Of a DNA stretch of 64,000 nt, positions 2,965-59,628 are shown piece by piece. The first letter of the stretch is position 1. Each line of letters begins with the position of its first letter. The translations under genes and the position numbers were made by a program. The stretch lies in contig OZ017763.1 of NCBI GenBank assembly GCA_963969365.1, positions 124,001-188,000 of the forward strand, given 5' to 3'. The DNA comes from Asterochloris sp. CNOR1. Its lineage: Eukaryota; Chlorophyta; Trebouxiophyceae; Trebouxiales; Trebouxiaceae. The notes beneath the pieces are model-generated. The model did not search any database. It saw only the letters and a list, made by a program, of their open reading frames with translations, and was not told where the DNA came from.

Positions 2965-5900
2965 CAGCGCAAAGATGATGTAGTACCGCATATGACGTAT
3001 GTGCAGCACTGTCTCCAGGAAGCGCAGGTGGCGCCCCACGCCCTTGGCAACCGCCAGGACGACCTGCACCTGCGAAGCACGCGCAGGGGGTAGGGTCAGG
3101 GGATGCACCACATGAAACTGTAAGCTGCAGCAGGAGCTGCCTGCCTCGCCCTGCAGAGAGCTTTGTGCAAGCCAAAGCTGCCCCCCTGCTCGTGGCTTCA
3201 GCCAGTGCTCCAGGGACTTGTCCGCAGGTCCAGCGCTGTGCAGCTTGTGCGCATCGAGGCTCCCAACCACTTGCTGGCTTGACCACTGCAGCAGGAGCCG
3301 GTCCAACCTTCTCCAACCTCGCACAGCTGTCTCCATTGGCAGGCCTCTGCCAATCCCATCAGGTTTGAGCTGGTGCAGCAAAACCCCGAATTGCAGGTCC
3401 AGCCTCCAGTGCAGTCCTTGCACACTGAACAGGCCCTTGATGTGTTCACTGACCGAGCCCCCCATCAGGAGTCGGCCGACCCTGTCCAGCCTTGCCCAAC
3501 TGTCACAGATGGCAGGTCTCTGCCGATCCACCAGGCCTGAGCTGCAGCAGCAAAGACCCGGCACCCGGATCCAGCCTCCCATGCACACCAGGCAGTCACC
3601 TGATCAACTCACCGGCTTGAGCCGCTGCATGAGGAGCCGGCCCGACCTGTCCAGCCTGTCCCCGCTCTCCAGGTACCCCTGCCAGAAGGGCCCCAAGTTG
3701 TCCAGCGAGCGGTCGTGCTGCTGCAGAAATCCCTGTCGCAGCTGGGCCTGCAGGCAGTTGAGTGCTGGTGCTGCAGTGCATGTATATACGTACACTGTTG
3801 GCAGGCGCACAAAGTATTCCCATTCTGCCATGGGCACACCACAACATGGTGAGTCTGCGGTGATATGCCTCGTGCCAGAGGGGTGCTGGCTCCGCAGTGG
3901 CTGCGAGGGAGCTGCCTGTAGGCGGCCGTGCAAGCTCGTTGTGGTTGGGAGGCAGGTGCTTGTGGGGCCAGCCAGCCAGCTGAGCAGCGTCTGCCAGCCA
4001 CTCTGACTGTTGGGGTGGCGCTTGCCAGGCAGGGCCTTTGGTTCAGGCTGCGCTCACGTCCGTGGGCACCCCTGGCCAACAGGCAGCAAAACGCCCAGCA
4101 GGACGACTGCAGCGCCTGCGGTTACCTCCCCTGCCCCGCCCCTCCTCCCCTTTTACCCAGCCACTGTGACTGTTGGGGTGGCGCTTGCCAGGCAGGGCCT
4201 GTGATTCAGGCTGAGGCAGCAAAACGCCCGGCAGGACGACTGCAGCGCCTGCAGTTGACTCCCCCGCCCCGCCCCTCCTCCCCTTGTGCCCCCACAAGCA
4301 GCCCAAGGATGCCACAGGGGTGTCAATAGGGCTGGAGCTCAGCTCCACAGTAGTCCTCCAGCCAGTCCACAGCAGGACGACCAGGGGGAGGCCTGCTGCA
4401 GGCCCCCATGCAGGCAGGCAGAGATATTGGATCTGGGACAGGCTGCAGCTCACCTCCATAGTAACGCCCAGGCCCAGGGGCACAAAAACGCCCAGCAGGA
4501 CATACAGCAGCGTCTGCAGCAGGGGACTCTTCCACGGCGACTGCCCAAATTCACCCATGGCCCACCGCGACCACACCATGAGCTCAAAGACTAAGAGCTG
4601 GAGGACGTACAGGCGCATTGAAGTGTGCAGGCGAAGCTGCAGGGCAGTGTTCCAGGGGTAAGTGATGAACAGGCAGCATCAGGAGATGGCTGCTACCAGT
4701 GGGCAGACATGCCCGACCCGCAGTGCAGGTGTGTCTGCACGACAGGGGTGCCAGCCCAAACCATAAGCATGACACAGTGCTGACATGGCCTACAGCATGC
4801 AGTGGGAGGTGGTGACAAGGCCGTGTGTGCAGGAAGTTGCAGAAGGCGCATGCACACCACAGCGTGCAGGCAGTCAGCAGTGCAGGGACAGCGGTGCCAC
4901 AGGCTGGCAACTGCCTCACATTCCAGCTGTGGCCATCCTCAGAAACAGTTTGCAGTGCCCAGCCTGGGCGACGGTCATGGAGATCTCAGAACAGACAGGA
5001 GGGTTTGCAGGGCAGTGTGGCGCTGGTGACTGATGCCATTAGCCTCAGCTGGGCTGAGGTCATACAGAGTCTCTGCACCATGCGCCTCTGCCAGCCGCCA
5101 TGACCCGCTGGCAAGCTGACCAAGGCAGCAAGCGCGGATCCCCTCACCTGGTCAATCGTCATGCAGAAGCCACGCAGCACCATGGCAGACAGGGGGGTGT
5201 TGAAGGCCAGCTCCCCCGACTTGAGCATGATAATCGTCACCAGCAGGGCTGTCAAATTGACCACCTCGACTGCCACCTTGTAGTGTTCGTGGTAGGAGTA
5301 GTACCTGCACCGCAGTAGATAGTGGGCTGGGCAGCGTCAGCGATGGAGTGCAGCCCTGGCTGCCTGGCAGTGGCGGCTTGGCTGCCAGGGGCACGCGAGT
5401 GGGTTTCTGCTTCAGGGCCCTAGCATGCAAGCTGCAAGAGCCATTTCCTCAGCTGTGATGTGCGCCTCGCAGCGCAGTCGGGTGAATTGATGCTGCTGGT
5501 GAATTGATGCTGCCAGAATGTGCTGGGCTGATGCAGGTAGCCTAATTCATTGGCCAGCTCAAAAGCTTTGGCGCAATGCCAGGAGCGCGCTTCAAACCAG
5601 GTGTCCATGCAACAAGAGGCAGGAGGGGCAACCAAGTTGAAGGCAAGGCCAGAGAAGGGGATGGGCAGCTCACTCCACACCCCTACCTGGGGCTTTGTCT
5701 GGGGAAAGACAGGGGCCACGTCACAAGCAGTCTCCCTTTATGGATGAGGCAGGTAGAGAAGGCAAGACCAGGGGCAGTGTCAGTCAGCCCATTCATAGCT
5801 CTGGTTTCAGCTTTGGAGCAATGCCAAGGGCGTGCCCCAGACAGGTTTCCTTGCAGAGATTGAGGCCTGGCCACAGCAAGCCCACCTGACACCTGGTCGC

Positions 5901-7884: not shown

Positions 7885-8099
7885 CTAGAAAACACTTGTG
7901 AGACTGGGAGAATGGAAGTGTCCGAGAAAATACAAAAACATGACGTGGCATCGAGTCTTGCTGCTGGCTGATACGGCATCAGATATGTCAAGCGGGAGGT
8001 CCTCGGGGGTGCAACAAAGCTCAGCCGGCTAATCTTCAGAGGTGAGGCATCAAGTCTCTGTATGGGTCGCGCAGCCACACCCTTGCTTCCCTGAGGGAC

Positions 8100-9488
8100 A
8101 TTTCTTGACTTCTGGAGCATTGAAGCTGCACATTACAGGACATGCAGCTAACCAGTCAGCCCAGTGCCTTAAGCAGGCAATCTGCCCTGTGCGTCACACG
8201 GCAACAGCAACAGCCAGGTCTGCCAGGGGCAAAGGCTCTTGCTCCACCATCATTCACAGCAGGTCTCTGTTGCGGACATTCTGCCTGTCTGACAGGCCAG
8301 GTGCAGCGGTCCCACACTGTTCTCGAGCAATGGCAGCATTGCCACAGAAGTGGAAGGGCCACATGATCGTGAGGTGCAGTTAGTGACCTCAGGGCATGAA
8401 AGATGGATGGGTGCAGACTGCAAAGTGCGGGGCAGGGGGACTTGCTCAGATGCACAAGCTAAGCAGGACCGACACTTCAGCTGGAGGGCAGGCATGATGA
8501 CTTCTCCTGTCTGGAGGGCACTGCTATGCATTTGCAGCGTGTCATGCAGAACATGCAATTGCAGCATGTCATGCAGACTATGCAATTGCAGCGTGTCGTG
8601 CAGAGAGGGGCTCATGTGGCAGCAGGTGCAGATGGTTCCGGGCAGCCCCTGGCTGCTTTGCTGATAAGTGGTCGCTGTCCAGGAGCAAAGACTAGATGGA
8701 CAGCAAGCAGCAATCAACTGCCTGTAGCTGAAAATGATGTGTGGACGACCTGGCCAGCCTCTCCCTGGTGGGCTCCTGATTACTGCAGTAGGCTGTCAGT
8801 CCTCCCACCACACCATGCACAATCCCTGGATCCGTTTACACATGCTGCCGTGCTGCAAATACCTGATGAGGCATCAGCGTGGACTCCAGGTGTTGCAGGG
8901 AGTGCTGCATGCCCATTCTCAGCAGAACAGTGTACAGCCAGACCAACGCTACCAGTATGCTAGCACTGCAATAATGACATGTCGGCATTGAAGCCCTTCT
9001 CCTTCAGCCCCGCACCAACTCATTGGTCATGTGTGTATGCCCAGGATGACGGACCTGGTGTCTACATGGCTCACCGCTTTTGCCTCCGCAACACGTTGCG
9101 CCTGATGCCAGTGTCACCAGGCACCTGAAATGCAGCTACAAGGCTCTCTTGGTGACTACCGACTCAGTGAGATGCTGCTGGCCTGCCCCTTCACAGCAGC
9201 GTGGTTTATGCTGTTCACTCTGGGCTTTGCCTGAGCCATAGCTGACAGCTGAGATGCAGTTATCTTTGAAGCCTCCAGAGAGAATAGGAAGCTGATCAGA
9301 CCTGCATTGAAGCTTAGCAAATGCTTTTGTTGTGGGTGTCAGGACCAGGAGATACAGGAATTTCACACAGGCGACTTGTGTCCTGGAAATGTCTGAGTAA
9401 GATTTGTTGTGATCTAGTTGCTGGCCAAGTTCCTCTGCTGTATCCACTTTTTCAGCAACCAGGCTCACAGGCCAGTTCATTTCCACCA
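8100..9488. other. Intergenic stretch with a short ~30-bp repeat
   Basis: No exon could be supported here. It separates the 3' end of the DEAD-box gene from the 5' side of the membrane gene, both on the minus strand, so it should hold the DEAD-box 3' UTR and the membrane-gene promoter. At 8522-8605 a unit of about 30 bp built on TGCAATTGCAGC and GTGTCATGCAGA is repeated nearly three times. Confidence 0.5.
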
Positions 9489-12400
9489 TCAAAGCAAAAT
9501 GGAACGGCGCTTCTTGGCTTTGTGTCTGCTCAATCGAACATCTGCATCACTGTCACTTGCATCTGCGTGTGCCCCATTGACTTGCGGCATGCCATCAGCA
9601 GGGTCTGCCTCCAGGTCTGTATTGTCATCATCTGTCTGCTGCGCAGCCTGCTCGCCTTCCTCTGCAGCGCCTGCATCCATGTCAGGCTCCTGGCCTGCTT
9701 CCATGGAGCTCAACTTCTGTGCTGCCAACTGGTAGGACTCGGCCAGGAGTTTGAGGTTAGGGTCGACAGGCTGCCCATGCACCTGCAACAGCGCAAAGGA
9801 GCCTGCATTGCAGAAGTGATGATGCTTCGCGCTGGGACTGAACGCGGCGCCTGCAGCAGGCTGCGGTCCCATAGCAATGTGCTCCTGCCTCACAGCAACA
9901 TTGGGGTGAGAGACGTGCGGGTGGTAGGCCAATCACAGCCATGCGACAGGCTGCAGCTGCAACATCTTGCCCTGAGCAATATTTCCAGCTGCGAAGTCAC
10001 TGGGCGAGTGTGCATGTATCCTGTTGTGCGTGCTGGCTGCACCCCACCCAAAGCAGCTGCTCTGCCGAGGCCGCCAGGTTTCAAGAGATGTGATACACAC
10101 AAGCTTGCTGCACGCAGTCTGCGATTCAGGCTGCGCCCCACCTGGAGCAGCTTGAGAAGCGGCTCTGCCAGGGGCGCCAGATTCCGGGTCATGAACGAAT
10201 AGGCATGCCCATCAGTGGAGAGGCGCCCTGTGCGCCCTACCCTGCAACCCACAGAGCCGTGTTCAGAGCCGCCTGGCAGGGCACTACGCCAGATTGGCAG
10301 TCTGCCAGGTGCTGTGCCTTCATGATTCTGACAGGCTGACTGACAATGCTCACAAGCTGAGCAGAGCCACAGACTCTCTGTCTTCTTGGGGTTTTTGAGG
10401 TGTGTTCCACTTAGCGCTGCACGGTGCCTCTTCATGAGTGCACCAGCCACTGTACAGACCAGGACAGCTGGGGGCCAAGGATGTCCCAGCATCCAGTGCA
10501 ACCCCAGCAGCGCCAGCCAACATCTAGTGCACACAGAGACTCATCTCAATGCGCTTCTGCACCCCCTGACACCCAATTACTTTCCTTCTGAGTGCGTGAC
10601 AAGCCTTCAGTCAGCGCTTGTGGCCTCACCTGTGTATGTATGTCTCCAGGTTCCCTGGGAAGTCATAATTCACAATGTAGGGCAGGCCTCCAGTGATGTG
10701 CAGGCCTCTGGCTGCCACATCTGTGGCCACCATGACCTGCGCCTTGCCAGACCTGAAGTCCAGAAGTGCAGCCTGCAGCAGACAGACACTTGGGTGGACA
10801 CTCAATTACTGTCCAGGAACTGCAGCACAACATACTGAGATACTGGATCTTCAAGCTACCTCAATTGCTGGATGTAGTTGTTACAGGACCACTTGAGCAA
10901 TGCTTTGGCAGACTGAATTGTGGCCCTGGAAGCATGTTACCGCCTGTTAAAGCAGACTGCTGCCCACAGCAGTCTACAGCATCAAGCTCTCCTGGGGCAC
11001 ATCCTGCAGTGTGCCCAGTTCGGCTCCTGTGAGGAAGGAGTTTGGGGTCAGGGTACACCTTAAACCCTAAACCCTAAACCAAGCTACACCGCATGTCAGC
11101 CGGCCGCCTGCAGCTCCCCATGCAGCTGCGAAGTGAATGCCTCATAGGAGCAGGCAGGGCTAGCTTACCTGTGCTGCCCCTACACGAGGGGTCACCCTAT
11201 GCAGCACCTGCGCCCGGCTTGGACTAGAGATTACCATCCATCACACCTCTGCTCATCAGCAGGTGACAGCGTCCTGCTCACCTCGCGTTCCTCCTGGAAG
11301 CGCTCCCCGTGCAGCTGCACAGCACGCCAGCCGCCGGTCTGCAGCTCCCCATGCACAAAGCGCACCGTCTTGATGCGGTTGGCAAAGATCAGTACCCTGC
11401 ACCACCAGTAAACTTTCAGCAAGCTGTGGCATGCTCAGTGGAGGCAGCCCCCTGGATGCCTCCCTCCACCACAGCAGTTGTTGCACGTCGCACCCAGAAG
11501 TCATCTGGGCAGGCCACTCCACATGCTCCTACCACCCAATGCCTCCCTCCACCACAGCGGTTGTTGCACATCGCACCCAGAAGTCATCTGGGCAGGCCAC
11601 TCCATATGCTCCTACCACCCAATGCCTCCCTCCACCACAGCGGTTGTTGCACATCGCACCCAGAAGTCATCTGGGCAGGCCACTCCACATGCTCCTACCA
11701 CCCAATGCCTCCCTCCACCACAGCAGTTGTTGCACAGCGCACCCAGAAGGCATCTGGGCAGGCCACTCCACATGCTCCTACCACCCAATGCCTCCCTCCA
11801 CCACAGCAGTTGTTGCACAGCGCACCCAGAAGGCATCTGGGCAGGCCACTCCACAGGCCCTACCACCCAATGGCCATGGGGAGGGGTTGTGCACACATTG
11901 CACCATCTTCTTGCAAATGCCACAGGCCAACACTCTGCACAATTCCAACAGCACAGTCACAGCAAGATCAGGGATGCCCTTGAGCAGCACACAAGCTGTC
12001 TCCACCATGCATGGTAGCATGGGCTCCTGCCAGCCAGCGACTTGATTTCACAGTGCCGAACCTGTGTCAAGGTGAGCCTTACCTGGGAGGGTTCCGCATG
12101 CCAGCAGACTGCTCTTTGATAGAGGCCAAGTGCTTCAGCAGCTTCTGTGGCTTCTTGTGTTCAGCGCAGACATGCACAACCTTCAGCAGGAAGGAGAATC
12201 TGATATGCAAGGCATCGTGCAGGGGCACAGCAGCTGAACTTGATGCAGTCATGCACAGGCAAGTCTGTTGATGAATCATGGTGCAATGTTGATGATACTT
12301 ACAAGAGGTCGTAAGGCAGCTTGATGCAGCACACCAGCAAGTCAAAAGCCATTATGTGGTGCAGCCTGGCCCCCAAGTGACCCATGAGCTTACAGCAATG

Positions 12401-17198: not shown

Positions 17199-20100
17199 AT
17201 GGCAACATGGCACATGGCTTTAATTCTAATGGTGCCACTGCTGCTGGCGCTGACCCATGCAAGAGGCCTGGATGTCTCTGGCAATCCCACATCTCCAGGA
17301 CAACGCCTCTCTCCCAGTGCGCAAAACAGCTCTTTTGAGCAGACCGACCTGCCAGGGCTGTCTGAGCAGCCACAGCTTTTTCAAGCTGTCTTTGGCCGTG
17401 ACAGCCAGCCATTCTGGGTCATTGTGGTGGGACAGCTATTGGGATCGGTCATACGGGTAAGGCTTAGGGACATGTCGAGTGCAAATGCAAGCCAGTGCCC
17501 ATTACAGGCTTGCTCGACTGCTGCCCAGACCCGACATCTGGGTGGAGGTGCACCTCTCTGCAGCATCGCCATCATGCAGCAGCTGCATTGCGCAACATGT
17601 GGCAGTCCTGTAGCCACACAATAAAAGCACCTGTGCTTTTCTCGGCGCACAGCTGCCATCAGGCAGCTGCCTTGCCCTTTCTGTCTCATCAGCACAGCCC
17701 TCACCTGCAGGGTGTCACGGGCTTTGGCTCGTCAATAGCGCTGGTCGCAGTGTGGGTGATTGCGAAAAATGTTGGAATCAATGCTGGTGAGGGCTGCAGC
17801 AATGGTCGTGCAGCACAAGGCTGCCCATACAGTGCAGGCAATGCCAGCGCACCTGGGCAGGGGTGCACTGCATGCACCTAAGACATGCACTGATGTCAGG
17901 GCCTGCCCAGTGGTTAGGGTTTATGCCCACATGAGCAGCAAGCTCACATCCTTTGGCAGCTGCAGGAGGGGTTGGCCCTGCTGAACAGCAGCCAGGACAG
18001 GTCTTGTAGCGGGGGCTGAGCCCTGCACAGCAGCAGGCAGTGCAGCCTCATGGTAGCTGCAGCCGGGGGTGTCCCCTGCACATCAAAGCATGTGGACAGA
18101 CTGCCTGGCGGCAGCTGTGCTGAAGTTGAATGCTGAGTGCTCTTTCCCCTGCTGCAGGTGACTTCACACAGCTGGTGGTGACAGACAGTATAGCAGCTGC
18201 AGCAGCGGCGCCCCCTCTCATGTATGTCACGCGTGTCAGACGCTTCTGTGACTGGAGGCTGGTCATCACCGTCACGGTGTTTGGGGTGAGCCTGCCATAC
18301 AGTTCCTGGACTCCCCTGTTGCATGCATCACTGCGTGTCAGATGAGCGCTTCTGCTGTGCTGCAAGGCTTATGCTGGGCTTCATGTATTTGTCATTTGCC
18401 TTGGAGTCTGCAGTTTGAAGTCGCCCCACAAGCTGTGGCCATTGCTCCAAGAGCTCATGTGAACAGCTAGACCTTTGTCTGCAGGCCATGGGCTGCCCCA
18501 TTGGAGCCTACCTGCTGGACGAGCTGGATGGCCCACACCTGCAGGTAAATGCTGGCACTGAGTCAGGTTGCTGCAGTCGGACACTGTTGCGCCAGGCAGA
18601 AAATGCACTCAAGATCTGCTGTAACTCATGGGTCAGGGGTCTGTTTGGCCTGTCTAGATGCCGGTGTCCATGATCTCCCCGTGGAGCTGGCTGCCAACCT
18701 GGTGGGGGGCTCTCTGGATCAGGCAGTCAACGGTCTGCACAATGGCCATCAGCTGGGTGACGTGCAGCAGGAACTGCTTGCAGCTTATCATGTTTGCATC
18801 CCCAGTGGGTCTGGCAGTCTGCATCAGTGACCACCCTATAGGTGCTGTGGTTGCCTGCACTCTATTACTCACTGATCTCGCCAACAGCCTGCAGTTGGTG
18901 GCAGCTCACAGCCTGCACAAATCAGGGTTGGCGTAGGAGTCCCCTTGTCCCATGCGTGCTGGCCCCAGTCACAGGTTGCTCATCCCAGGTCATGTTGTGT
19001 GAGCAGAGGTGCAATATCTCACATTGCTCCAATTGGTGTGCAGGTGGCCATTGCTGTTGCCCTCACGTTCGTCTTCCTCAGCATGGTCTTTCCCCCGGCC
19101 ATAGTCATCCCTGCCCTGCTCAAGCTGTGCAGTCAGGGGGAGCAGCCAGCTGAAGTAGCGGCCAAGGCGGGCTACAAGGCGCTGCCTGACGCAGACACCG
19201 AAGCATCGTCAGGTTGGGGGGGGGCGGGGGGGGGGGGGGTCCCTGCAGTGCATGGGGAATCAATGAACGTGGCGGCCTGGGCTGCTTGAAGCCGAGGGGG
19301 GAATTGCAAGCAGCCAGGCATCGTCAGGTATGGGGGCGTCTCTGCAGTGCATGAAGAACTAACCAGTATGGCGGCCTAAGCTGCTTGAAGGGCATGAGGC
19401 GCTGCGTGATGAGGACGCTGGAGGGAGCTTGCAAGCGGCCAGGGATCATCAAGTGTGGAGTTGGTTCCACACTATACCAGCCATTATCAATTGCAGCAGG
19501 CTGAGCTGTTTTGAGGGTGTGAGGCGGTGCCTGATGCTGGAGGGAGACCGCAAGCAGCCAGGCATGTTCAGCTTTGCATGTGCCCAGCAGAGCCTGTGTG
19601 TCTATAGTGCAGTAGGCTACGGAAGGGTATGAGGCCCTGCCTAATGCTGAGGCTAAGTCGGGAGGGACAAGCAGCCAGGGATCCTCAACTGGGGGCAGAC
19701 ATCTCCCCTTAAGGCAGCACTGTCCTCTTGCATGTGCAGCCTCTGCTTGCTGCCTTGGTGCAAGGCAGCTCAGCGTCAAAGCAGTTGCCGTCAGCTGCCC
19801 CCTGCCTCCAGCCAATGTTGCTGCCAGGTGCAGCACATCAATGCCCAGGTAGGTGCAACTTGCGACACGTCCAGCAGCATTCAAGGCACAAAGTGGTGCA
19901 AAGTTCTCTATGCCTGCCTGCAGTTCGCGGCAAGTCAGCCCCCAGGCAGATGCGGCTCACAACGCCCCCTGCGTCTCCCATGGCCATGGCGGCAAGTCAC
20001 CATCACAAGGGCGACGGAGGAACGCCCTTTGGGCAGTCTCTCATTGTGCGAGCACTGACACGGGACTACCTGCGGGGGCACACCACCCCTCAGCTGAACG

Positions 20101-23100
20101 CATCTTCGCTGCCCTACCCCCGCACAGCGGCTCAGGTAAGGCACTGTCAGTTGTCAGGGGCCCACACCCCTCCTCAGCTGAACGCATCTTGCTGCCCTGT
20201 GTATGCACAGCACCCCAGGTGGGGCACTTTCAGTTGTCAGGGGACACACCACCCCTCAGCAGAGTGCGTTTGTGCTGCCCTACCCATGCACAGCAGCCCA
20301 GGCGAGGCTCGTCAGTTGTCAGGGGCGCCATGTGCGGCCTTCTTTCAAGGCACTTCCAATCAGAAAGAGACCTGTTGGGCGCAACAAGCCCCTGCTGCCC
20401 TTGGCGTGCTGCCTGAACCCTGTGAAGAAGTACAGGCAAGCTGGAGACAGTCCTCCAAGAGCTGCATGGGGCAGTCACCATGGGCCGCACCATTGGTGTG
20501 AGGAGTGCTTCTCACAGGCACCTGTCTCATCCCTGACAGCGTTCGGCCTAGATCTTGCGGTTGATCTAAGCCAGTGTGTGCTGCTCAGGTGTCCTCCCGC
20601 CAAGCCTGGGGTCCAGTGCATCACGAAGACATGGCAGCCTCAATGCCAGTCAGAGTCCCCTCTGAGGCTGGCAGTTCTGGCAAAGTGCAGGTGAGCACCC
20701 TCTCTGCAGTACAGGCTACGACGCCTCAGGGACTGTAACAGCTCTCGGACGCGCAGCAGGGGAAACTGTGGGTCACCCTGACTTTCGCTGCCATGCCAAG
20801 CTGCTTGAGGGGCCCTTAAGTCATCAAGCTCAGGCAAAATCTCTTAGGTGACAGGCTTGTCTGTGTTGGCGCACTGGCTGTGACAGAGGGCAGCAGGCAG
20901 CAGCAGGAGCCTGCTCCGCCCTTGTGGTATTGTCTGCCCCTACCTCGTCAGTGAGTCTGACAGAGACTCTATGCTGTGGTTGGCTTGGATGCAGAGATTT
21001 CAATCCACCTGCAGCACGGGGTGGCAGCAATGACATGCCTGGCCCTGCCTGACAAAGGGTCAGGCATCTCAGCTGCCCGATGTTCAGCTGCATTGTGGTT
21101 TGGGTGAAAGAGGGGGTCTAGTCCAAAGGGCAGTAGAGCACCCTGCCGCTCTTACATCAAATGCAGATGGCAGCATTGATGCAGATGGTGGCATCAGTCA
21201 TCCTATCAAATAATCTGGCCTGTGCTGCAGGTGGACTTGAGGCACTACATCACAGGCCAGCAAAGGGAGCAGCCTGCGGTGGATGGAGATGAGCATCTGG
21301 TCACAGTCAGGCACAACAAGGAGGAGCGACACCCGGACGACGATGCGGGTAAGCGACCTGAACACACTTTGAGCTGTGGCATGGGTGTTTCCAGGCTTCA
21401 GAATGGCCTGTGAGCGCAAGCAGGCATGTGTGGCGTGCTTAGAGCCCCACAACTCCTCTTGCCTGTGCAGGCCCCCCGCTGTTCTGCGTCAGCCCCCAGA
21501 CGCTGGCTCAGGTGCGTCAGGTGGCCCACGCGGAGCACGCCAGCTTCAGGGCAGCTGCCCTCTGGGGGAGCCTGCAGCCAGACCGGCACACGGTGGTGGC
21601 CGATGTGCCCATTCAGAGACGCCGGCTGGTGGCGCCTGAGGGGACACCTGAGCACCCGGCCGAGCACTCCCTGCCTGTGGCGTTCACCATCAGGTGGGCT
21701 TAGCCACTGAGCTGCTGGGTGTTACTGGATAGCGGGCCCAGGAAGAATGCCGTTGCATGGAGATGGGCTGCAACGTTGCTGGCAAAGAGGGGCACAGTGG
21801 TGGCCGATGTGCCCATCCAGAGAAGCCGGCTGCCTGATGCTTGCCACAACTGCAATGCAGCTGGTGCCCAAAAATTGGACTGCTGCTGGGTGGTGCTGGA
21901 TGGCGTGCTCTGGCAGGCAAATTGTGCTGTGCGTGCCCTGGCTCCGGCCAGACCGTTATGCAATTGTTGCAAATGCGCCCTTCGTCACAGCAGTCAGCTG
22001 GTAGCACCACAAGGGGCAGCTCAGCACGACAAGGGGCAGCTCAGCACGCGGCCGCGATTTCAAGAGGAGGCACACAAATTGTACAGAACTTTGAGTGCTT
22101 CTGCCTGCAGGCGGGGGGCGCGGGTGGCCGCGCGCAGCGGCTTCTCCAGTGGACGCACCAGCAGCGACAAGGGGCCCGACGTGCTGGGGCAGCACCCAGC
22201 GGCCCTGCGGCGCGGCCCGCCCGGTCAGGCTGCCCCTCCCTCTTTGCTGGGTACCACCACCATCAATTCTGTGGCTGGCTGGCCATCAAACAGGTTTGTA
22301 TGCCAAGGGTACCGGAGGTTACCAAGGGTGCCAAGCAGGTGCTTGCTGTGCACAAACGTCGCTCACAGCTTTTGACACACACAAGGACACAGCAACTGAC
22401 AATGGTGCGCATCAACTACTGAGTTATGTGTGCCAACTCTGCGGCAGGCAGGTTGTGGACGTTGTCTTGAAGCTATTTGGGGGGCTCATTGCTTACAGCT
22501 GCCTTTGCCTGCTGACAGGCGCTGCACGGTACATGGAGTGCCTAGTGACCAGCCACTACAAACAAAGCTGTTTGCCTTCTGGCTGAGGGCATGCACTCTG
22601 AGCAGGCCTGTGCTTGCATGAGGCCTTGCCGTCTGCAGAGCAGGTGTGATTGTGCTCCTGACTGCCTCACCCTCATGTGCAGGGCGGCCGACAAGCCAAC
22701 CCAACCCTCACAAGGGCTGCGGCTGGGGGCTTCGCCTCACTGGGAAGCAGCTGCCTCAGCTCTTGAGGGGGACTCCCCGGCGGGAGACAGCCCCAGGCAA
22801 GCCGTGCTGCGCCTGTGCTGCCAACAGCACTGCCGACAGGCTGCCCCCCTGTGTCGCCAGTGTTAAGCAGCAGGCTGGGTGGGAGAGTGCTGTGTAAGCA
22901 GCTCATGGGGTACCCGTGCACCTTCGATTGCCTATATCCCATGCTCTCCATGGTGCATCTCTCGTGATCAGGTGTGCCATGGGCTAGATTGTGGGCCATG
23001 TGGCTGGCAGTGCATTGCAGCTGAGCAGTAGGGTATGAGTGCTGCTGAGAGCCCTGTGGCGGTTGCACAGCCTGCTTTGCTGAGCAGTGCTCCACGCAGG

Positions 23101-33124: not shown

Positions 33125-45574
<12,450 letters not shown>

Positions 45575-46837: not shown

Positions 46838-47058
46838 CGTGCTGGCAGGCAAGACACTGCTTTGGCTGGGGGCTGACTGACAGGGTGCGCATCCACAGGT
46901 ATTCCTCAATATTAATATATTGAGCTGGGCAGTACAAAATATATTATCATCAGAGCTGGCAGCTGGAAGGAGCCTAGAAAGTACAAGCGGCTGACTAGGC
47001 ATATAGCTGCACCAGTTCTGCCACCTCATAGCAGCACCTGTCACTTTACAGCGGCCAC

Positions 47059-49648: not shown

Positions 49649-50243
49649 CCATGTCACCATTGACATGATATGTTGTAGTGACCTGCACTTTGCTACTTCT
49701 TTTGCTGTTATTGATGTTTACACTGCCTGCATGGCTGACCAAAAGAATTAGCGTCCATGTGTAGTTGAGCCTCAGAAGAGGCCCAAAGGCATCAACTTTG
49801 GGGCCACTCAGTTGTCAACACCAGGTGTACAACAGGTTGTCCCATAGACATTTCTGTCTGGCCGGGTCATCGGTCTGCTGCTGGCATTTGTAGGGCCCAG
49901 GCTGGCACTGGCACTTGCAGAGCCCAGGCTGGCACTGGCATATGCAGAGCCCAGGCTGCCACTGGTATTGTGGGCACTGCACCTGCATGGCATTCAGGGC
50001 TGTGCTCATGATAGCCATTGCTGCCAGCCAGCTGGCTGGCAGCACTTCCCCTTCATCTGGCCCCTTTGGAAATCTGATTCTGCTGATGCGCATCATGATG
50101 ACATGTCGCTGCAAAGTCTAACATACCCTCATCCAGGGATGCTATGGTGAGCTGAGGCTAAGTTGATCTTCAGGTCCCCAGAGCACCAGCTGGACACCTG
50201 CAGGTGTCTACCACAAGGCTGGGTGCTTGTCTCAAACACAGGC
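49649..50243 (+). other. SDR 3' flank with a 30-bp repeat
   Basis: No gene seen. At 49893-49968 a unit of about 30 bp (CAGAGCCCAGGCTGGCACTGGCA) is repeated about three times. The ankyrin-gene promoter should lie towards the right. Confidence 0.5.
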
Positions 50244-51046
50244 ATGTTTTTTTACTTTTCCTCGAGTAAGTGCTGGTCGATGCAGCTGCATGTGCAGCCT
50301 CGTATATGGCCAGCCTCATTCACTTCATGATTGCTCTTGCAGGTGCTCAAAAAGCTGCCGAAGCTGGGGATCTACAGTACCTGCAGTCAAAGGCTCACAT
50401 GCTTGAGCGGCCTCTGCTCGAGCAGATCAGCTTGTACGCAGCCAGAGGAGGCCAACTGGAAGTGCTGCAGTGGTTGAGCCTGCAGGGGGCTGCTCTCAGC
50501 CCGCACATGTGCACATGGGCAGCGGAAGGAGGCCACCTGGCAGTGCTGCAGTATGCCCACCAGAATGGCTGTGCCTGGGACTCGAGCACGTGCGAGGCTG
50601 CAGCAGGAGGAGGGCACCTGGCAGTGCTGCAGTATGCCCGCCAGAACGGCTGTGCCTGGAGCTCAGGCACGTGTGAGGCTGCAGCACGAGGAGGGCACCT
50701 GGCAGTGCTGCAGTATGCCCACCAGAACAGCTGTACATGGGGTCCAGCGGTCTGCAGTGCAGCCGCTGAGCTTGGCAACCTCAGCATTCTGAGGTGGCTG
50801 CGCCAACATGGATGCCCGTGGGATTGGCGCACAACTAGTGCAGCAGCTGTTGGCGACCATCTTGAAGTTTTGAGGTGGGCTCGTCTACAGCAGCCTCCCT
50901 GCCCGTTATGGCCCCGCCAGGAGCAGTTACGATTGATCATCCGCAATCTTAGCCCCTGCATGCTGGTGTACCTCTTACAGCAGCAAGCGCCCATGAGTGC
51001 CAGACACCTTGCTCAGGCTCGTGCCGCTGCAACAAAGATGACATAA
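50244..51046 (+). CDS. Ankyrin-repeat protein
   Basis: Protein-binding repeat protein of unknown partner. Two exons are proposed: 50244-50265 (MFFYFSS) and 50343-51046, joined in frame, for 241 residues. Five to six ankyrin units of about 27-33 residues follow each other; the central ones are almost identical (GGHLAVLQYAHQNGCAW). This HLAVLQYA..NGC.W form is typical of the large ankyrin families of protists, algae and giant viruses. The second exon is sure; the tiny first exon rests on a GTAAGT donor at 50266 and frame match. The gene is likely shortened. After the stop at 51044-51046 the same frame continues for about 30 more codons that are also conserved in the 3' copy at 54320-54413, so the present stop is probably a recent mutation. 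Confidence 0.75.
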
Positions 51047-51523
51047 GCAGTTCTCTCACTCAGAGCAGCTCTCCCTGACAGGACTCCCCATGAAGCTGTT
51101 CTGAAGATTGCGAGTTTGGCATTAATGCAAGCTTGGCAGTAACCAAAACAATACTGTTTTAGAGTTGCTGTATGCCTGTGCAGACTTGCAAAAGACCCAA
51201 GCTCTACTCAAATAACGTCTGCACAGGCAACAGCTTATGCTCTGTCAGCCGTATAAGACTTGAAACACGAACCTTTGAAATGGAAGCTTTGTTAAGCCTG
51301 GCCACCGGGCACCTGAACCTGGCAGATTGCGCCGCACTGCTCTGCCACATGGACACTCTCTCTACCTGCGCGGCAATCTGAGTAAGACTTGGTTACTCAC
51401 TGCACCCACCAGGCATTAAGTTGGCCTGCAGAACTCAGGAGCATATGAATTGTCAAGCCACTGCACGCGTGCATGGTTGCATCTCTTTGCAGCCGTTCCA
51501 GCAGCATCTCAAAGCGCTTTTGC

Positions 51524-52994
51524 CTAGAATGGACTGCACTGTGGTGTCGCAATCCGCAAAGTCTTCCTTCTCACAAGCTGTAGCATGAGCTGTAGCTTCC
51601 CTGGATCCATCCGCTCATTGGAGAGCTCCTGACCCTCCAGCAAAGTGCCAGAGTACAGGTTGTAAACACTTCCAAATCCTGCATGGTCATTGACAGACAC
51701 TTTTTGCAAAAGTGGAGCTAAATTCCGAAAAGCCGCTGCAGATTGCCAGCCTCATCCCAGGTTCAAGGATGCTTCTAGCAGCTTGCAAAGCATACACAGC
51801 TGCCACTCACCCACAGCTGCGTGTCTAGCTGTAGGGGAGAGGCCCTGCTCTTGACAACAATCCTGTGGATGGCAGCTGGGCACACAGAGAGCCCTGCACA
51901 TTGGAGCACCTTGCCAAGTGGCAGCTGGTGGTGCCACTGCTGAGAGGCCGCCACACCGTTGCACCAGGCAGACGCCAGCACACTGAGCGTGGCCTGAGCT
52001 TACGTGGTGACTACCTACATGATCTTGTGCTGCCACAGCCTGGGTGCCAGCTTGGAGCTGCCCAGTGACTGCTGCTGAGGCTGCAGCGCCTTCTGTCAGT
52101 GAAGCGGGAGCGCTGGGTTGCCCCTGTGCCTGCTGCAGTGCACCTGAGCTCACAAGACAGCCACAGCAGTTGCTGCTGCTCTGCTTGTGCTGGCCATCCC
52201 TCAACTGATGGCCAGGGAAGACAAACGATGAAGCGCGAGGCAGATGCAGGCTGAATCCCATGAAAGGGCAACAAGATTGTGACAAGGCTGTAATGCTGGT
52301 TGACAGCAGCTGGTTGACAGCAGCCAGATGACAGCATCTTGCGCCCCATCATCAAAGCTCCCAGGCAGGCTGCACCCAGCAGCGTGGTAATGCGTTCCAC
52401 CTGCAGTTGCAGTGAACTATTGGGAGGGTCCTTCTCGTGTCTCAGTGAATGGATGACCAAGTGATGCAGGGACCTCCTTCTTCTATTGCTAGATGTGCTG
52501 AGCACACTTGCTCTGGCCACTCAACTTGGCCAAGGCAGGGAGCCGCTGGCTCTCTGAGGGCCAGGCCACAATGCCATTCGCACAGTCTGACAGCCATGCT
52601 GTAAATCTTACAGTCCGATGGCCACACAGCCAGACGAGGGACAGGTGGGCAGGACTTGCAGCATGCTTGTGCATCTGCAGCCTGGTGGCGTTAATGACAG
52701 GACAATGCACTCGCAGCATGCTGAAATGTATCTGTCCAAAATGAGTCCCTGGCCTGAGAGGAGCTCTCTACTATGTTGCTGACCTGGTAGGCATCTTGCT
52801 GCCAAGCCTTGGACGTCAGCAGGCTTGACGACTGAGCGGCAGTGTGCTGGCAGTGTGCAGAGTCCACAAGCTGGGCAGCTGAGTAGCACCCAAAAAGCTG
52901 AAGGCCCCGCCATAAAGTTGAGCACAGGGCTTTAGCTGCCTCAGATGCACCAAGCAACAGGTGAGGCACAACGAAATGGTCTGGCCCTGACCAC
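51524..52994 (-). CDS. Unidentified minus-strand gene (partial model)
   Basis: I do not recognise this protein. Exon 52784-52994 encodes SGPDHFVVPHLLLGASEAAK and on to SKAWQQDAYQ; it joins in frame to a segment starting at 52400 (VERITTLLGAACLGALMMGR). Further likely exons are about 51808-51923 (VLQCAGLSVCPAAIHRIVVK onward, ending at a GTGAGT donor) and about 51524-51713 (KVSVNDHAGFGSVYNLYSG onward, then a stop). The protein seems soluble with one hydrophobic stretch. Upstream exons past 53000 were not resolved; the inverted repeat and minisatellite lie exactly there. It is interleaved between the ankyrin gene and its copy. Confidence 0.45.
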
Positions 52995-53085
52995 CTGACA
53001 GCCCCACGACTTGTGAGATACCACCCCACACAACGCTGGGAAGGCCACAGACCCTGGCTCACAAACAAAACACATGGGGCGGCAC

Positions 53086-53504
53086 ATCTGACACAGACCT
53101 GGCCTGAAGAGTCCCTGCGTGCTTTGCTCCCAGCCTGCAGTGGCCGTAGAGCACTGGCCATGGCCATGGGGCAGTGCATCCTGAGGCAGTGGCCCATGGC
53201 CATGGGGCAGTGCATGCCCGAGGCAGTGCCCCACGGCCAGTGCCCCACGGCCAGTGCCCCACGGCCAGTGCCCCACGGCCAGTGCCCCACGGCCAGTGCC
53301 CCACGGCCAGTGCCCCACGGCCAGTGCCCCACGGCCAGTGCCCCACGGCCAGTGCCCCACGGCCAGTGCCCCACGGCCAGTGCCCCACGGCCAGTGCCCC
53401 ACGGCCAGTGCCCCACGGCCAGTGCCCCACGGCCAGTGCTCTACGGCCACTGCAGGCTGGGAGCAAAGCACGCAGGGACTCTTCAGGCCAGGTCTGTGTC
53501 AGAT
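53086..53504. repeat. Perfect 74-bp inverted repeat
   Basis: Bases 53086-53159 are the exact reverse complement of 53431-53504 by eye. The 271-bp spacer holds a short GC-rich block and a minisatellite. Transcribed in either direction, the arms would form a 74-bp duplex. Confidence 0.95.
53229..53438. repeat. 14-bp minisatellite, 15 copies
   Basis: CCCCACGGCCAGTG is repeated fifteen times without visible change, followed by one diverged unit (CTCTACGGCCACTG) that is part of the right inverted-repeat arm. Having no stop codon in any frame, it creates long open frames of 14-residue repeats on both strands that are not genes. Confidence 0.97.
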
Positions 53505-53967
53505 ACTGGCCTTGAGGCAGTGCATGCCCGAGGTCCCACGCGCACCTGATAATGACGGGCCTGAAGGTGATGTACGCTGGGGCGGGTGCACCTCAGACTC
53601 GTTGCCTCAGCGCACCAGCAAGAAGTTGGGGGCTGTGGAGGGGGCACCTGCACAAACGTTCAGTAGGGTTGGTAGAGTGGAACCTGACCAGTATGGAGTC
53701 ACCAGGGCTGGGTATAACAGCCTGAGAACAGAAGGAGCTGCCTTACACACACGGAAACCAGGTGTGCCTGGTGTGCGTGCAGGGCCATGCTGCATGTGTG
53801 TTTGAGGAGGCCAACTCTCAAGGCCTGCTTGGGGCAAGGTGCGGTCTGCACCAAGCCCAGCTGGGGGCACCTGCGCACAAAGGTTTATTGCCTCCAGAGC
53901 CACTGGCTGCTGCCTCGCCCTTGCACATACTAAAAGCGCCCTGTATCAGCAGTGGCTCTGCCCCAAG

Positions 53968-54413
53968 GAGGCCACCTGGCAGTGCTGCAGTATGCCCACC
54001 AGAACGGCTGTGCCTGGGGTCCAAAGGTCTGCAGTGCAGCCGCTGAAGGTGGCAACCTCAGCATTCTCAAGTGGCTGCGCTAACATGGATGCCCGTGGGA
54101 TTGCTGCACAAGTCGCGCAGCAGCTGTTGACAACCATCTTGAAGTTTTGAGGTGGGCCCGTCTACAGCAACCTCCCTGCCCTTTATGGTTCCAGCGGGAG
54201 CCCTTAAAATTGATGATTCAAAATCTTAGCCCCTGTATGTTTGTGTACCTTTTACAGCAGCAAGCGCCCATAAGTGCCAGACACCTTGCTCAGGCTCATG
54301 TTCCTGCAACAAAGATGACACATGCAGTTCTCTATCTCAGAGCAGCTCTTCCCAACAGGACTCCCCATGAAGTTGTGCTAAAGATTGTGAGCTCAGCATC
54401 TCAAAAGCTTTGA
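53968..54413 (+). pseudogene. Truncated copy of the ankyrin gene with a stop codon
   Basis: The stretch matches 50525-51140 at DNA level but lacks the 5' part; it begins within one repeat (GGHLAVLQYAHQNGCAW). The codon equivalent to CAA (glutamine of LRQHGCPW) is TAA at 54081-54083. Past it the frame is intact to 54413, including about 30 C-terminal codons (AVLYLRAALPNRTPHEVVLK) that the first copy has lost behind its own stop. Confidence 0.88.
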
Positions 54414-55200
54414 ATCAGATAACGTTGCATACTTGAGCAAGCTTGCACAGAACTGGAACACATGTTGTGCTGCAGCAGCTGTATCAACAGACTTAAGTAT
54501 AATATGTTGAATGTACATTATGTTCAACTGTCTGTTGAATGCATAAGCAGTGAAATAACAGGCCATATGCCTTGACTGCTTGCTGCAGCTGCAGAGAAGT
54601 TCATCTGAGCAATGTGAGAGCTAAGGGACCTGTGCAGCCCAGGCTTCCTAGCGTAGCTACGAGAAATTGCCAAGCCCAGGCTGCCTAGCATAGCCTACGA
54701 GAAAATGCCAAGCAGCACCCTTGTTTTCCTCTATATACTTTTGCCAGGCCTCGCATGATGTATAAAGCTTGCAAGACTCAGGTGGACTTAGATCAACCGA
54801 AGTCATTGACCTCAGCAGCTACTAGCATGAAGGAGTGACTCCTCAACCGGATAGTGGAGCATAACACCATGAAGTTTGCAAAGAAGCAGTGGCAGACATC
54901 ATCTGCTCAGGCACAGTGCCAGAGATTTGCATATCATTGCAGGATGCTCAGCCATCTTTGAATGAGCAGACGGCACCAGAAACCAGTTACATGGCGACCC
55001 TTGTTTGATTACCTGGGAGTGAGAACCCCAGCCCAGTGACCGGAGCCAGCCTCAGACAGTGCTGGAACGACTTGCTTTGCAGCCTCCGGCAAGTTGCTGC
55101 AGAGGCTGAGCGCGGAGGCTGCCATTTGCTGCAGAGGCTAAGCGCAGTCTCTGCTACAGGTAGCTGCAGTCAGTCTTGCGACAACAAAAAGGGAGGGGAA
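54414..55200. other. Non-coding stretch with a ~45-bp duplication
   Basis: A/T-richer than its surroundings. GCCCAGGCT(T/G)CCTAGC and TACGAGAAA.TGCCAAG occur twice at about 54637-54705. Nothing codes here as far as I can see. Confidence 0.5.
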
Positions 55201-55290
55201 GGCCAAGGCTGGACTTGAACCAGCGACGCCGGGGTCTTCGATGGTTTTAGCTGAACGCTTTGCTTTTTGAAAGAAGTTGACTTCTTGGCC
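55201..55290 (-). other. tRNA-like structure (T arm plus acceptor-like stem)
   Basis: On the minus strand the 90-nt stretch begins GGCCAAG and ends CTTGGCC, a perfect 7-bp stem. Before the 3' strand of that stem lies a perfect T arm, GCTGG-TTCAAGT-CCAGC, which also fits the Pol III B box (GGTTCAAGTCC). No convincing D arm, A box or anticodon arm was found. It may be a decayed tRNA, the end of a tRNA-derived SINE, or chance. Confidence 0.35.
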
Positions 55291-55409
55291 GGGATTCGTG
55301 CTGTATTGAGACAACTGTTGTCGATACAAAGACGATTCCCAGCTCTCGTCAGGCAGCTGCAAAGGATTCTAGATCCAAGACAGGTCAAAGGCTTGATCTG
55401 AGGACAGTC

Positions 55410-58400
55410 ATGGAGGAAGGCCATGCAAAGGCTGCACAGGTCATGCCCTGGCAGCCAGTGGTCATGTTTGCCAAGTACTCCACCCCCTGCAGCAGGTGCC
55501 ACCTGCCCATCTCTGTGGGCAATAGCATATACCCTTGGCAAGACTATGACGGCTATCAGCACCTCAAGTGCGCACTGCTGGAAGCCGAGGAGCAGAATGT
55601 TCCCCTGCAGCCGCCCGTGAGTACATATCCAATGGCATGATGCCGCCAGTGCTGCACAACAACGCTCAGTGCCGACTGCAGGTCTGCAAGCACTGGACAA
55701 GGCGAGGATTTTGCCTCTTCAAGGAAACTTGCTACTTCAGGCACCCGCCCGATGCGCATCCTCCAAAGGCGCCTGAGCCTCCCATGTGAGCAAGGCCGCT
55801 GTGCTGGCGGTCCATGTCAGGGGTGTGCCAAAGCTGCAAGCCATGCAAATGCATGGGACAGCTGCCTTGAAGAACCTCTGCTCTCAAGACTTGACTGCGG
55901 CCTTCAACGAATTATGCAGGCCACAGCTGCACCTACTGGGGTGTCAAGCAGTGCCTGGGCTGCTTGGGTGGCTTGGGGCTGCCCAGGAACAGGCTGTCTA
56001 TGATTCCAAGCTGCGCATGTTGTTCAGAGGCGCCAGGAAGCACAACAGCAGAGCCCTCTGTGCCCCTGCTCAGGCTTCTGAGAGACAGGGTTCAATGTTG
56101 GTCAATCACATGGTTGACCCTGCACTGAAGCAGGCCACAAGAAGGCCAAGCTGCTTACAATGGTGAATTGGCACCAGCTCAGCCATGTGGCCTCGCAGCG
56201 ACAGGAAGCAACAGCTTACCATGTTCAGTCATGACTGGCTGAGATGGTCTTGCTGCCAGACCATCGCAGATCATAACAGACACTGCCATGGGAAACAAGG
56301 TGCATGCCTCTACTGCGTGCTGGCTGCAGAGAGGCCCAGCTGCCTGAAAATGAGGTGCAATCCAACAGCCATGCCAACTGTACAAGAATGGTGCCTGGTC
56401 TGCTGAGAGGCAACGCTACCCAACGTGTTGCCCTGAGGTGCAAAGCATCGCACATTAATGCTGGTGCTGCTATCTGGCAGAGACACCAAGGTGCTCAAGA
56501 CGAACACGCCTATTGCAGACTTGACCTCAATCAAGGGAAAGCACAGTCCTCACTGAGCAGTGTGCCTGCTCCCGTCTGCAGAGAGGCAAAGCTGCCCAAC
56601 GATGAGATGCGCAAGGCCAACCGTGGGCTGGGCCGGCGCAATCTCGTGAGGAACGGTTTCAGAGCCGGCACTGTCAGAAGGTGGTCCTGCGGTGACTATC
56701 TGCTGAATTAGGTATTGCATTGTTTTTGTCTAGCAGGTATGTGCAGCAAGCTGGTGGATCAGAGCCAGCTCTTGCTGCGCCTCCTGCACGTTCTGTCCTT
56801 CTGCCCTGAGCAGAGGCTATGAATATTGGCTGGGGCAACGTGATGTTGCAAATGCCTGACTGATGCTGGTTGCCAGCAATGAGTTGGCCAAGGCCAAAGG
56901 GAAGCTCACTGATCACGCCAGAACAGGTCTGCCTGCCTGCAGATTCCTGATCGACGTTTTTGGGAAGGATGTGCTGGCCAGTGGTAGCGGCGTACTGGAC
57001 GTGGCAGGAGGCAAGGGGGAGCTGGCATTTGAGCTGGTGAACCTCAATGCAATCCGTGCCACAGTGGTGGAGCCGCGCCCCCTGCAGCTGGCGCGCCCTT
57101 TGAGACTGCTGGCCAAGGTGAGACATGGGTCTTGACACGGACGTCATGCCTTGGCACCAGCGGCTGGCGCAGCTTCTTTGCACCTTGGCAAGAGCAATGA
57201 CTTGCGTAGCCACAGTGGTGGCCGCGTCTCCTGCAGCTGTGGGCGCCTCTTGAGGCTGCTGACCAAGGTGAATGGCATGAATGTAAACGCAGCTGTCAGT
57301 TCTTGCCGCCTACAAGTGGCATTGCCCTTCACAAAGTGCCTCCAACAATGCCTTGCATGGCAACCTTGGTGGCGCCCAGTCCCCTGCCGCTGATGGTCCT
57401 GCAGGTCACGCTTCTGCTCGATTTGCTGCAAGGCTGTTGAAGGAGGAGCCCACATGAGGGCTCGCAGCTTCCTGCCAGCACAGCCTGCAGCTCCTGCCTA
57501 TGACTTGCTGCAGGGCTTCCAATGGCGGAACCCCCACTTCACGCGCTACAACGACACCAGCTGCCAGGACTTCCTGCAAGGCACCAAGCAGGGTGTCAGC
57601 CCCCCACACCTCAGAATGGTGCTGGACGCCGCAGTGGTGGCCTGCCTGGCGCAGCAGGCTCGGGGGCAGCAGATCGGGGCAGACGCTGTGCCTGCCAGCG
57701 CTGACTCTGGAGATGCTGAGCCTGCCAGTGCCGACTCCGAAGACAGTGTGCCTGCCAGCGCTGACGCTGGGGATGCTGGCATGGTGACACAGCAGCATTG
57801 TGCACAGCAGGCAGCAGCCTGCGCAGCTGCAGGTGAGGAGGCTGAGCAGCGGCCTCCAGCAGTGCTGGATGCTGCGGCAGATGCTCGAGCTGCTGTGGCC
57901 CAAGGGAGCAGCGCAGGGGATGGCGGGTGGCTGTCAGTGTTCCAAAGGTCTATGCGGGATGCGCTGGACAGCAGCTGGACCAAGAAGGGCCTCCGGGTGA
58001 GTGAGCTGTGTGGCATCAAGCCCTGCAGCCACTGCAGCGCACAGACTGCCCTAGATGGCTTGCTGGCTACTGCTTCAGCTGCTGCAAGCTCAATCCAGGT
58101 CGCTGATTTCTTGCTGGTCAACGTCAGGATTTGCCTTCCCCTTCATTTCTGTGATTGTATCAATGTTGAGAAGCCTGCAGCCAGCAAGCTCTCAGTTCTC
58201 CTCTCTGCTGTACAAAGTGGGCATGCGTCTCGCAAAGTTTACGCCAGACCAACTCTTGACCCAGGCAATGTGTCTGACTGGCGGCATACTGCTGTGCAGT
58301 GGGGACACAGACATAGCCCTTGCCGGGCTGATACAGGCACCAAGGCCTCATCACACAACACTGCTGTGCAAGGCCTTGTAGTAGGACTGTGTAATACGAG

Positions 58401-59628
58401 GTGTAAGGCCCCATGACAAGACGATCTGCAAGGCTGTACTGTATGCTGTGCAGGGCGGCCATGAGGACGGAGCTGGCTGGGCAGACACAGACAGCTCCGC
58501 CACGGACGTGACAGAGGAGGCTGTGAGTGATGCCCCTGAAGTGGGGCCCACGGACATCATTGACCCTCAGCTGGCGCTGGCAACCCTCCTGCATAGCAGT
58601 GTCATTGTGGGCATCCATCCTGACCAGGTGAGGCCTGCTGTGTCCAAACTTGGAGCAGCTGCTCCCACTGGCAGCACTGCTGCATTTGGAAGGAAGTTGC
58701 TGCATGCATGTGCTGGGACTCAAGCCCCAGGAAGGTGGGCAGGATGGCATTGTTGTCTCGTGGTGGGCTGGGCTGAGGATGGCTCAGCCGAATGGTGGCT
58801 GCTGACTCAGCCGCCTGATCTAGGAGGGGGCTTGCTGCGTGCAGTGCAGCCTCTCCATGTTCAGTTGAATTTCAAGGGGCGTGTTTGTTTCAAAAAAGGC
58901 CATTGATACACACTTCTTGGATGGGGATGCTCATCAGGGCTCTCCTGTTTGACACCATCAGGGGAATGTCATATACTGAGCCAAGTGGCAGCTGTGCTGC
59001 ATTGTTTGCCAGCTGTCTGTCGCATTGCAGCATTGCAGCTGGCAGCACTGCTGAGTGAGGCCCCCAGCACTCTGCATGCCAGACTGCACAGCATGTCCGG
59101 TCCAGAGCAGCACTTCTGAGTGGTTCCATTGCTGGCTGCCTGCCAGGCAGTACAGATGTTTCTCCTCATGGTGTGTTGCTGGCTTACTGTGATAAAGAGA
59201 GTCACTCTACTGGCGCAACCTTCTCATCTGTGCACTGCCAGGCTGGCAGCACATTGGGCTACGCCACAGAAGTGCTGCTGAGTGCATCAGCCGCTGTGAA
59301 GTTGCTTGTCCTGCTTGAGTCAGGTCTCACAGCAGCGCCGCTTCCTAAATCCCTGTCTTTGCGTCTGTAGGCAGTGGAGCACATCATTGAGATGGCGAGG
59401 GTGTTGAGGAAGCCCTTCTGTGTCGTGCCCTGCTGCGTGTACCCTGCAGAGTTCCCTTGGCGGCGTGTGGTGGAGCCTGATGGCAGCCGGGTGCAGGTCC
59501 GACAGTATGAGCAGCTGCTGCGCTACATCCAGCAAAAGTGTCCTCAGACTGTGCTTGAAACCCTGCCCTTTGAAGGCCGCAACAAGGTTCTGTATTGCAC
59601 CCAATGGCCAGATGAACCAACATCTTGA
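55410..59628 (+). CDS. Zinc-finger and methyltransferase-like protein
   Basis: A conserved but poorly studied protein type. Seven exons keep frame: 55410-55616, 55682-55785, 56582-56680, 56943-57117, 57433-57996, 58454-58627 and 59371-59628. They give 526 residues. Near the N-terminus a CSRC..HLKC cluster (C27, C30, H51, C54) resembles a PARP-type zinc finger, followed by a perfect C-x8-C-x5-C-x3-H finger (C71, C80, C86, H90), which usually binds RNA. The SAM-binding-like motif is VLDVAGGKGEL (about 154-164), followed by NLNAIRATVVEPRPL. The C-terminal half contains VIVGIHPDQ, then KPFCVVPCCVYPAEFPWRRV and LPFEGRNKVLYC. A Ser/Ala/Glu-rich, repeat-bearing insert lies between (about 240-330). 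Similar MTase-type proteins with HPDQ and VVPCCV motifs occur in protists. The start is the first ATG. The acceptor at 57432 (CAAG) is the weakest junction. An RNA methylation role is inference only. Confidence 0.82.
57061..57270 (+). repeat. Decayed copy of a methyltransferase-gene exon end
   Basis: The end of exon 56943-57117 (CCACAGTGGTGG..GCCGCG..CCTGCAGCTG.GCGC, then CTGCTGGCCAAG and a GTGAGA donor) recurs at about 57209-57271 as CTGCTGACCAAG with a GTGAAT donor-like site. Confidence 0.85.

Follow-up and report, generated by a model that had tools for sequence, protein, structure and literature searches.

Decayed copies of exon edges in introns of the green alga Asterochloris sp. CNOR1, probably left by short local tandem duplications

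Introns of the green alga Asterochloris sp. CNOR1 contain decayed copies of the edges of their own neighbouring exons. In an original prediction, made from the letters of one stretch of DNA, these exon-edge copies were attributed to a mechanism that repeatedly duplicates 50–160 bp across splice junctions. The stretch, called the window here, is 64 kb of contig C18 (GenBank OZ017763.1, positions 124,001 to 188,000), and coordinates below are positions within it. Two 100-kb blocks of the same 56.4-Mb, 21-contig genome (C1 and C5) were added, so that 264 kb were analysed in total, and a small gene finder was trained on all of it. The 559 predicted introns have a mean length of 292 nt and a median of 253 nt, with a donor consensus near CAG/GTGAGC and an acceptor consensus of TGCAG/G; GC donors are found in 21 of them. 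The genome has 31 matches to the chlorophyll a/b-binding family, counted per exon, which together with the introns indicates a photosynthetic eukaryote. PMC12636532 gives mean intron lengths of 272 for Chlamydomonas reinhardtii, 206 for Chlorella vulgaris and 179 for Auxenochlorella. The gene finder makes errors: neighbouring genes were fused, tiny exons were called, ankyrin coding repeats were misread and one MCM3 intron copy was taken as an exon. Confident introns are the 188 of 559 in which both exons are at least 50 nt long with coding log-odds above 8.

Six proteins of the window were compared with Pfam, which recognised TauE, MCM3, UTP25, a DEAD-box helicase and a short-chain dehydrogenase. 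The names originally given to the TauE/TSUP gene (PF01925), to MCM3 (PF00493 and three more MCM families, the identity being also borne out against solved chains) and to UTP25 (PF22916) are confirmed; that of a 'zinc-finger/methyltransferase' protein is not, as no Pfam family matches it at E≤0.001. The TSUP gene, on the forward strand, has a series of copies. Exon 19044–19212 and the following intron 19213–19923 contain internal direct repeats (19233/19332, 19376/19501 and 19387/19622), and the exon end recurs faintly in the intron about four times, as seen by eye and by lenient alignment only. Three head-to-tail units of about 84 bp lie at 20079–20325, the first comprising the exon end and the donor at 20136 and the others being intronic. 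A 40-nt piece internal to an exon (21589–21628) recurs at 92.5% identity in the next intron (21793–21832) and does not span a junction. Upstream of the acceptor and exon start at 23717 are decayed copies of both (23552–23728), in an array with a period of about 48 whose best pair is 106 apart.

In the UTP25 gene, on the reverse strand, an acceptor and 58 exon bases recur upstream in the intron (27135–27306, period 106), and 27 exon bases recur in an intron at 30848–30998 (period 124). The MCM3 gene, also on the reverse strand, has the largest collection. A stretch of 51 exon and 26 intron bases, including the donor, is copied in the intron at 33806–33998 with a period of 116, and an acceptor with its exon start is copied upstream at 34091–34298, where the AG has become AC. 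Three exon-to-intron copies are present between 36706 and 37499 (36706/36922, 37053/37215 and 37288/37470). At 40112–40406 there are about three tandem units of 92 bp, each with an exon end and a GT donor, of which the first alone was taken as the end of the coding sequence. The gene finder called the second unit an exon; yeast MCM3 aligns through this segment without an extra copy, the copy having been left out of the query beforehand. If a later 92-bp donor were used, 92 nt would be added and the frame shifted, as 92 is not divisible by three. The acceptor at 40487 is crossed by two contiguous units of about 142–147 bp (40464–40774; AG to GG in the copy). Between 41721 and 42836 are a donor-side copy (41721/41799, GT to AT) and an acceptor-side copy (42667/42786, AG to AA), and between 43812 and 44501 are the exon-edge copies 43812/44019, in which the AG is kept, and 44225/44443.

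Three other genes have similar features. A putative membrane-like gene on the reverse strand (3289–4519) contains contiguous duplications with periods of 174 and 163 (69% and 76% identity) and a third, partial copy. The DEAD-box helicase gene (PF00270, PF00271; reverse strand, 11082–11872) has an exon copy (11082/11313) and, confined to intron sequence, a fresher array in which an 83-bp unit occurs five times at 97% identity. A short telomere-like run of CCCTAAA units is located at 11060–11085, between predicted helicase exons. In the forward-strand gene at 55410–60176, the one read earlier as zinc finger/methyltransferase, acceptor copies 56324/56576 and 56398/56574 and the pair 57058/57209 lie between 56324 and 57271. 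From 57272 to 59628 the window scan found no pair reaching 32 bits; what that part does contain is short-unit arrays, at 57681–57810.

Exon-edge copies inside introns are confirmed as genuine and above chance. The check proposed with the original prediction, a comparison of exon edges with their own introns, was run with 60-nt edges and a score of at least 28. Upstream edges matched in 14 of 188 confident introns and downstream edges in 13 of 188, compared with 0/564 and 1/564 for the same edges against other introns and with 1/188 and 0/188 for their reverse complements. Altogether 26 of the 188 introns contain, in direct orientation, a copy of one of their own exon edges. These 26 have a mean length of 467 nt, against 326 nt for the others; length-biased sampling alone would give 427. 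The signal is concentrated at the junction. In 191 introns, exon bases 0–60 from the junction gave 28 matches in 379 and bases 60–120 gave 2 in 307, followed by 0/161, 0/65 and 0/29 in successive bins further into the exon; the reverse-complement control gave 1/379 in the first bin and none in any other. TSUP intron 19213–19923, the most telling by eye, has exon-edge scores of 22 and 19, below the threshold, and is outside the 26. Under lenient scoring it reaches 15, compared with at most 14 in 24 control introns, which makes its exon copies old and only marginally significant.

The copies are local and in direct orientation, as originally described. BLAST matches of at least 32 bits less than 400 bp apart number 133 direct and 2 inverted. 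At greater spacing there are 3 direct matches at 400–800 bp, 1 at 2000–2400 and 0 at 5000–5400. At 40 bits or more there are 88 direct matches, 82 of them less than 500 bp apart, and no inverted ones. The figures at 32 bits are counts of matches, in which arrays enter several times and from which palindromic self-matches (5 in one scan) are omitted. A diagonal scan independent of BLAST gave 105 local clusters, compared with 1 at control offsets of 1200–1499. Reduced to non-redundant local direct pairs of at least 32 bits, with periods of 20–400 searched, the 264 kb contain 96 pairs, 38 of them in the window. By the gene models, 24 of the 38 are exon-intron, 7 intron-only and 7 exon-exon, and many pairs do not span a junction. 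Three pairs lie in a stretch of ankyrin repeats and minisatellite (49700–55300) and are not counted for the exon-edge claim. That stretch is dropped from the exon-intron and intron-only totals for the 264 kb (58 and 23). It is retained in the CpG and codon-position, random-placement, splice-dinucleotide (three donor or acceptor rows) and older-age forward-model counts, as well as in the tandem-array count (one junction array and one exon array). Pair density per 100 kb is 59 in the window, 17 in block C1 and 41 in block C5; the density of local duplications in the window is thus 3.5 times that in C1.

The periods of the 96 pairs range from 54 to 330 bp, with 85 between 75 and 250 bp. The histogram peaks at 90–104 in both the BLAST and the diagonal scans, and only 1 of 107 clusters in a diagonal scan up to 600 has a period beyond 345. 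The diagonal scan also shows short-unit arrays at periods of 15–44 and a dip at 45–74. An apparent lower limit near 75 in the BLAST data may be partly an effect of BLAST near the main diagonal. The longest-matching units (at 11456, 40112, 40464, 20079 and 3994) are head to tail. Older pairs consist of a matching core and a spacer, and we infer that these too were tandem in origin. A preferred gap of about 40 nt between copies was considered, with 11 of 63 clusters at 39–44 nt, and dropped when a larger set gave a broad hump at 24–65 nt.

Are the copies the remains of mobile elements? A genome search in which very common words were skipped placed the TSUP intron, the MCM3 arrays and MCM3 33250–34000 at one genomic place each. 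Within the limits of that search, these three stretches are neither transposons nor introners dispersed over the genome, which agrees with the original prediction. A fourth stretch searched in this way, at 50.4–51.1 kb, has 78 genome matches, but it is ankyrin coding sequence and no intron copy. Pair identity in the window ranges from 69 to 97%, so that the graded age claimed for the copies is also borne out. Intron length has been gained by local direct duplications in unrelated genes of the window and in both other chromosomal blocks. Adding up the unit lengths of all exon-intron and intron-only pairs gives about 12 kb, compared with 183 kb of noncoding DNA (12,048 without the ankyrin stretch), each pair being taken as a full tandem unit and growth too old to recognise falling outside the sum.

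The intronic copies decay neutrally. Exon copies differ from their twins at rates of 0.161, 0.140 and 0.216 at the three codon positions; of 32 such copies, 15 have an indel that shifts the frame and two have an in-frame stop. The rate of C>T/G>A change in the intronic copies is 0.247 at CpG and 0.041 at other sites, an approximately sixfold difference that may reflect CpG methylation. This spread over codon positions and concentration at CpG fit decaying noncoding DNA. The copied splice sites were originally seen as reserve donors and acceptors. However, GT is kept in 13 of 23 donor copies (GT or GC in 15 of 23) and AG in 20 of 31 acceptor copies. The overall figure of 33/54 is no higher than the 0.71 expected from neighbouring bases, and there is therefore no sign of splice-site upkeep, nor any sign of function in the copies.

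We favour, with a probability of roughly two in three, short local tandem duplication as the explanation; the duplicates would then decay neutrally, the extra copy being hidden by splicing. Short stretches, mostly of 75–250 bp, would occasionally be duplicated beside themselves in direct orientation. Duplications wholly within introns would be neutral. Those bridging a junction would be nearly so, because the spliceosome can keep using the copy joined to the body of the exon. The other exon piece and its splice site would be left inside the intron, which becomes longer by one unit. The intronic copy would then decay by point mutation, above all by loss of CpG, and by indels, while its twin is held fixed as exon. 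Exon-derived pairs would remain recognisable after intron-only pairs have faded, and junctions would look favoured. The molecular cause of the duplications and the splice copy used in the RNA are what we infer from this pattern.

Is the junction itself the target, or does it only appear to be? The original prediction took a process directed at exon-intron junctions to be at work; breaks coupled to splicing or R-loops would be one example. The steep fall of the signal with distance from the junction speaks for such a process, and so do the 58 exon-intron pairs, where 37.4 (sd 4.5) are found under rotated annotation; intron-only pairs are correspondingly rarer, at 23 against 39.1 (sd 4.5). Yet those 23 intron-only pairs exist, and the better-preserved material shows little preference. 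Well-preserved units comprise 7 exon-intron, 5 intron-only and 4 exon-exon cases, and among fresher arrays from Tandem Repeats Finder (at least 80% match) 4 of 20 non-exonic ones cross junctions, fewer than the proportion of 0.40 expected by chance, though this test is weak for the 75–250-bp class (only 5 of 24 arrays have periods of at least 60, and 2 of the 5 are at junctions). If units of the observed lengths are placed at random, 34.5% of placements cross one junction and 45.1% have fewer than 8 exon bases. Because one twin of an exon-linked pair is under constraint, such pairs fade more slowly, and this produces an apparent junction preference. A forward model of tandem duplication and decay with uniform ages was rejected, as it gives an exon-intron to intron-only ratio of 1.15–1.30 and the observed ratio is 58:23, or 2.5; exon-exon pairs (14 of 96, or 12 of 93 without the ankyrin stretch) are outside this ratio. 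At divergences of 0.3 and 0.4 per lineage the model gives ratios of 1.59 and 3.26 with median gaps of 48 and 81 nt, and the observed median gaps are 78 for exon-intron and 45 for intron-only pairs. By these sequence comparisons the exon-intron excess can be explained without junction targeting, slower fading being sufficient if most pairs are old. A junction bias of up to about twofold may exist, but a process aimed at junctions seems to us a poor prospect as the main cause, and this part of the original prediction is not sustained.

Tandem duplication with neutral decay has evidence to answer as well, beginning with the excess over rotated annotation just given. The model fits only with a mostly old population of pairs, which loss of young tandem repeats could supply, and at old ages its median identity is 0.74–0.75, below the observed 0.82 and 0.80. 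Exon parts seem shorter than uniform units would leave (2/307 beyond 60 nt). At p≤0.05, only 13 of 49 pairs have a spacer with homology to a flank, where 4.8 would be expected; an earlier test, weakened by its anchoring at the ends of the alignments, gave 6 of 52. Finally, 11 of the 96 pairs are spaced and of high identity (at least 0.85, over a length of at least 35 that makes up under 60% of the period), and two of the 11 lie in arrays; in the model such pairs are an estimated 2% or so of those detected. Such pairs, and the many spacers without detectable homology, would be explained by repair, in which a nearby stretch is copied into a double-strand break by synthesis-dependent strand annealing and leaves a spaced rather than a tandem copy. 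Events of this kind, in which the copied DNA includes exons and splice sites, are described in human (PMC2671141). That human set reaches 5 kb and includes an inverted exon copy, however, whereas pairs beyond about 350 bp are almost absent here, inverted pairs are none or two beside 88 or 133 direct ones, and the best-preserved units are head to tail; repair capture is the main rival and may contribute, but it is unlikely as the chief explanation. Selection on the copies as alternative exons or reserve splice sites could point to the intact donors of all three 92-bp MCM3 units and to the 15 donor copies reading GT or GC. It is very improbable in view of the frameshifts, of splice dinucleotides no better kept than their background and of an MCM3 unit that would break the frame. 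The birth of introns by tandem duplication of AGGT-containing exon pieces (the Rogers model), in which each intron is one repeat unit, would likewise leave exon-like sequence in introns, and cases are on record in other organisms (PMC4974935, PMC2891723). In an in-register comparison of donor and acceptor flanks, though, none of the 188 confident introns reaches 18 matches. Among 504 introns two do, on one side each, the strong one (27) lying inside the misread ankyrin array, and we give this origin almost no credence.

Short local duplications are a known class, and the accessible parts of several papers allow comparison. In primates and flies, the template of a short insertion is in most cases a tandem one (PMC2374710). 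The pairs described here resemble such 'doublets', close direct repeats and short tandem insertions in being direct, near and short, and differ in being mostly 75–250 bp, nearly all direct and frequent in introns, including exon edges. The human repair-mediated duplications (PMC2671141) share closely linked copies that include exons and splice sites, and two copied exons in that set are without constraint; the algal copies differ in being almost all under 350 bp and direct. In the potato RdRp gene (PMC4974935) a junction-crossing unit was likewise duplicated in tandem, but there a new intron was made, whereas in the alga an intron already present becomes longer. In Drosophila (PMC2891723), exon duplication with intronization likewise leads to duplicated exon sequence being spliced out; unlike in the alga, the unit is in a coding exon that has a proto-splice site, and an intron arises at a new position. 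Among the matches listed from the open-licence literature, no title or start of an abstract names green-algal nuclear introns with exon-edge copies. The contribution made here is a count: about one in seven confident introns of this genome has a recognisable shadow of its own exon edge.

These observations show the source of part of the intron DNA in a gene-dense genome. They also indicate that an apparent preference for junctions can come from survivorship, as selection keeps one twin of an exon-spanning duplication. If the density of exon shadows is lineage-specific, they would provide a countable clock for intron growth. A stronger proposal would be that in this lineage a process with a preferred unit of about 90–120 bp, duplicating mostly near exon edges at up to about twice the rate of intron interiors, ranks among the main sources of new intron DNA and continually gives rise to cryptic splice sites, with gene structure datable by the decay of exon shadows. 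We consider this improbable.

The ankyrin stretch has features of its own. The segments 50354–51122 and 53966–54399, on the forward strand, are ankyrin-repeat coding sequence with 27-aa repeats (Ank_4, E 3.8e-8 for 50438–50761), misread by the gene finder. The paralogues near 50.5 and 54 kb had been considered as a before-and-after pair for a duplication. This was dropped because they are ankyrin-repeat coding sequence with 78 genome matches, several of them near the start of contig C2. A 14-bp minisatellite of 16.4 copies at 98% is present at 53224–53453, within a larger self-complementary stretch (53086–53504).

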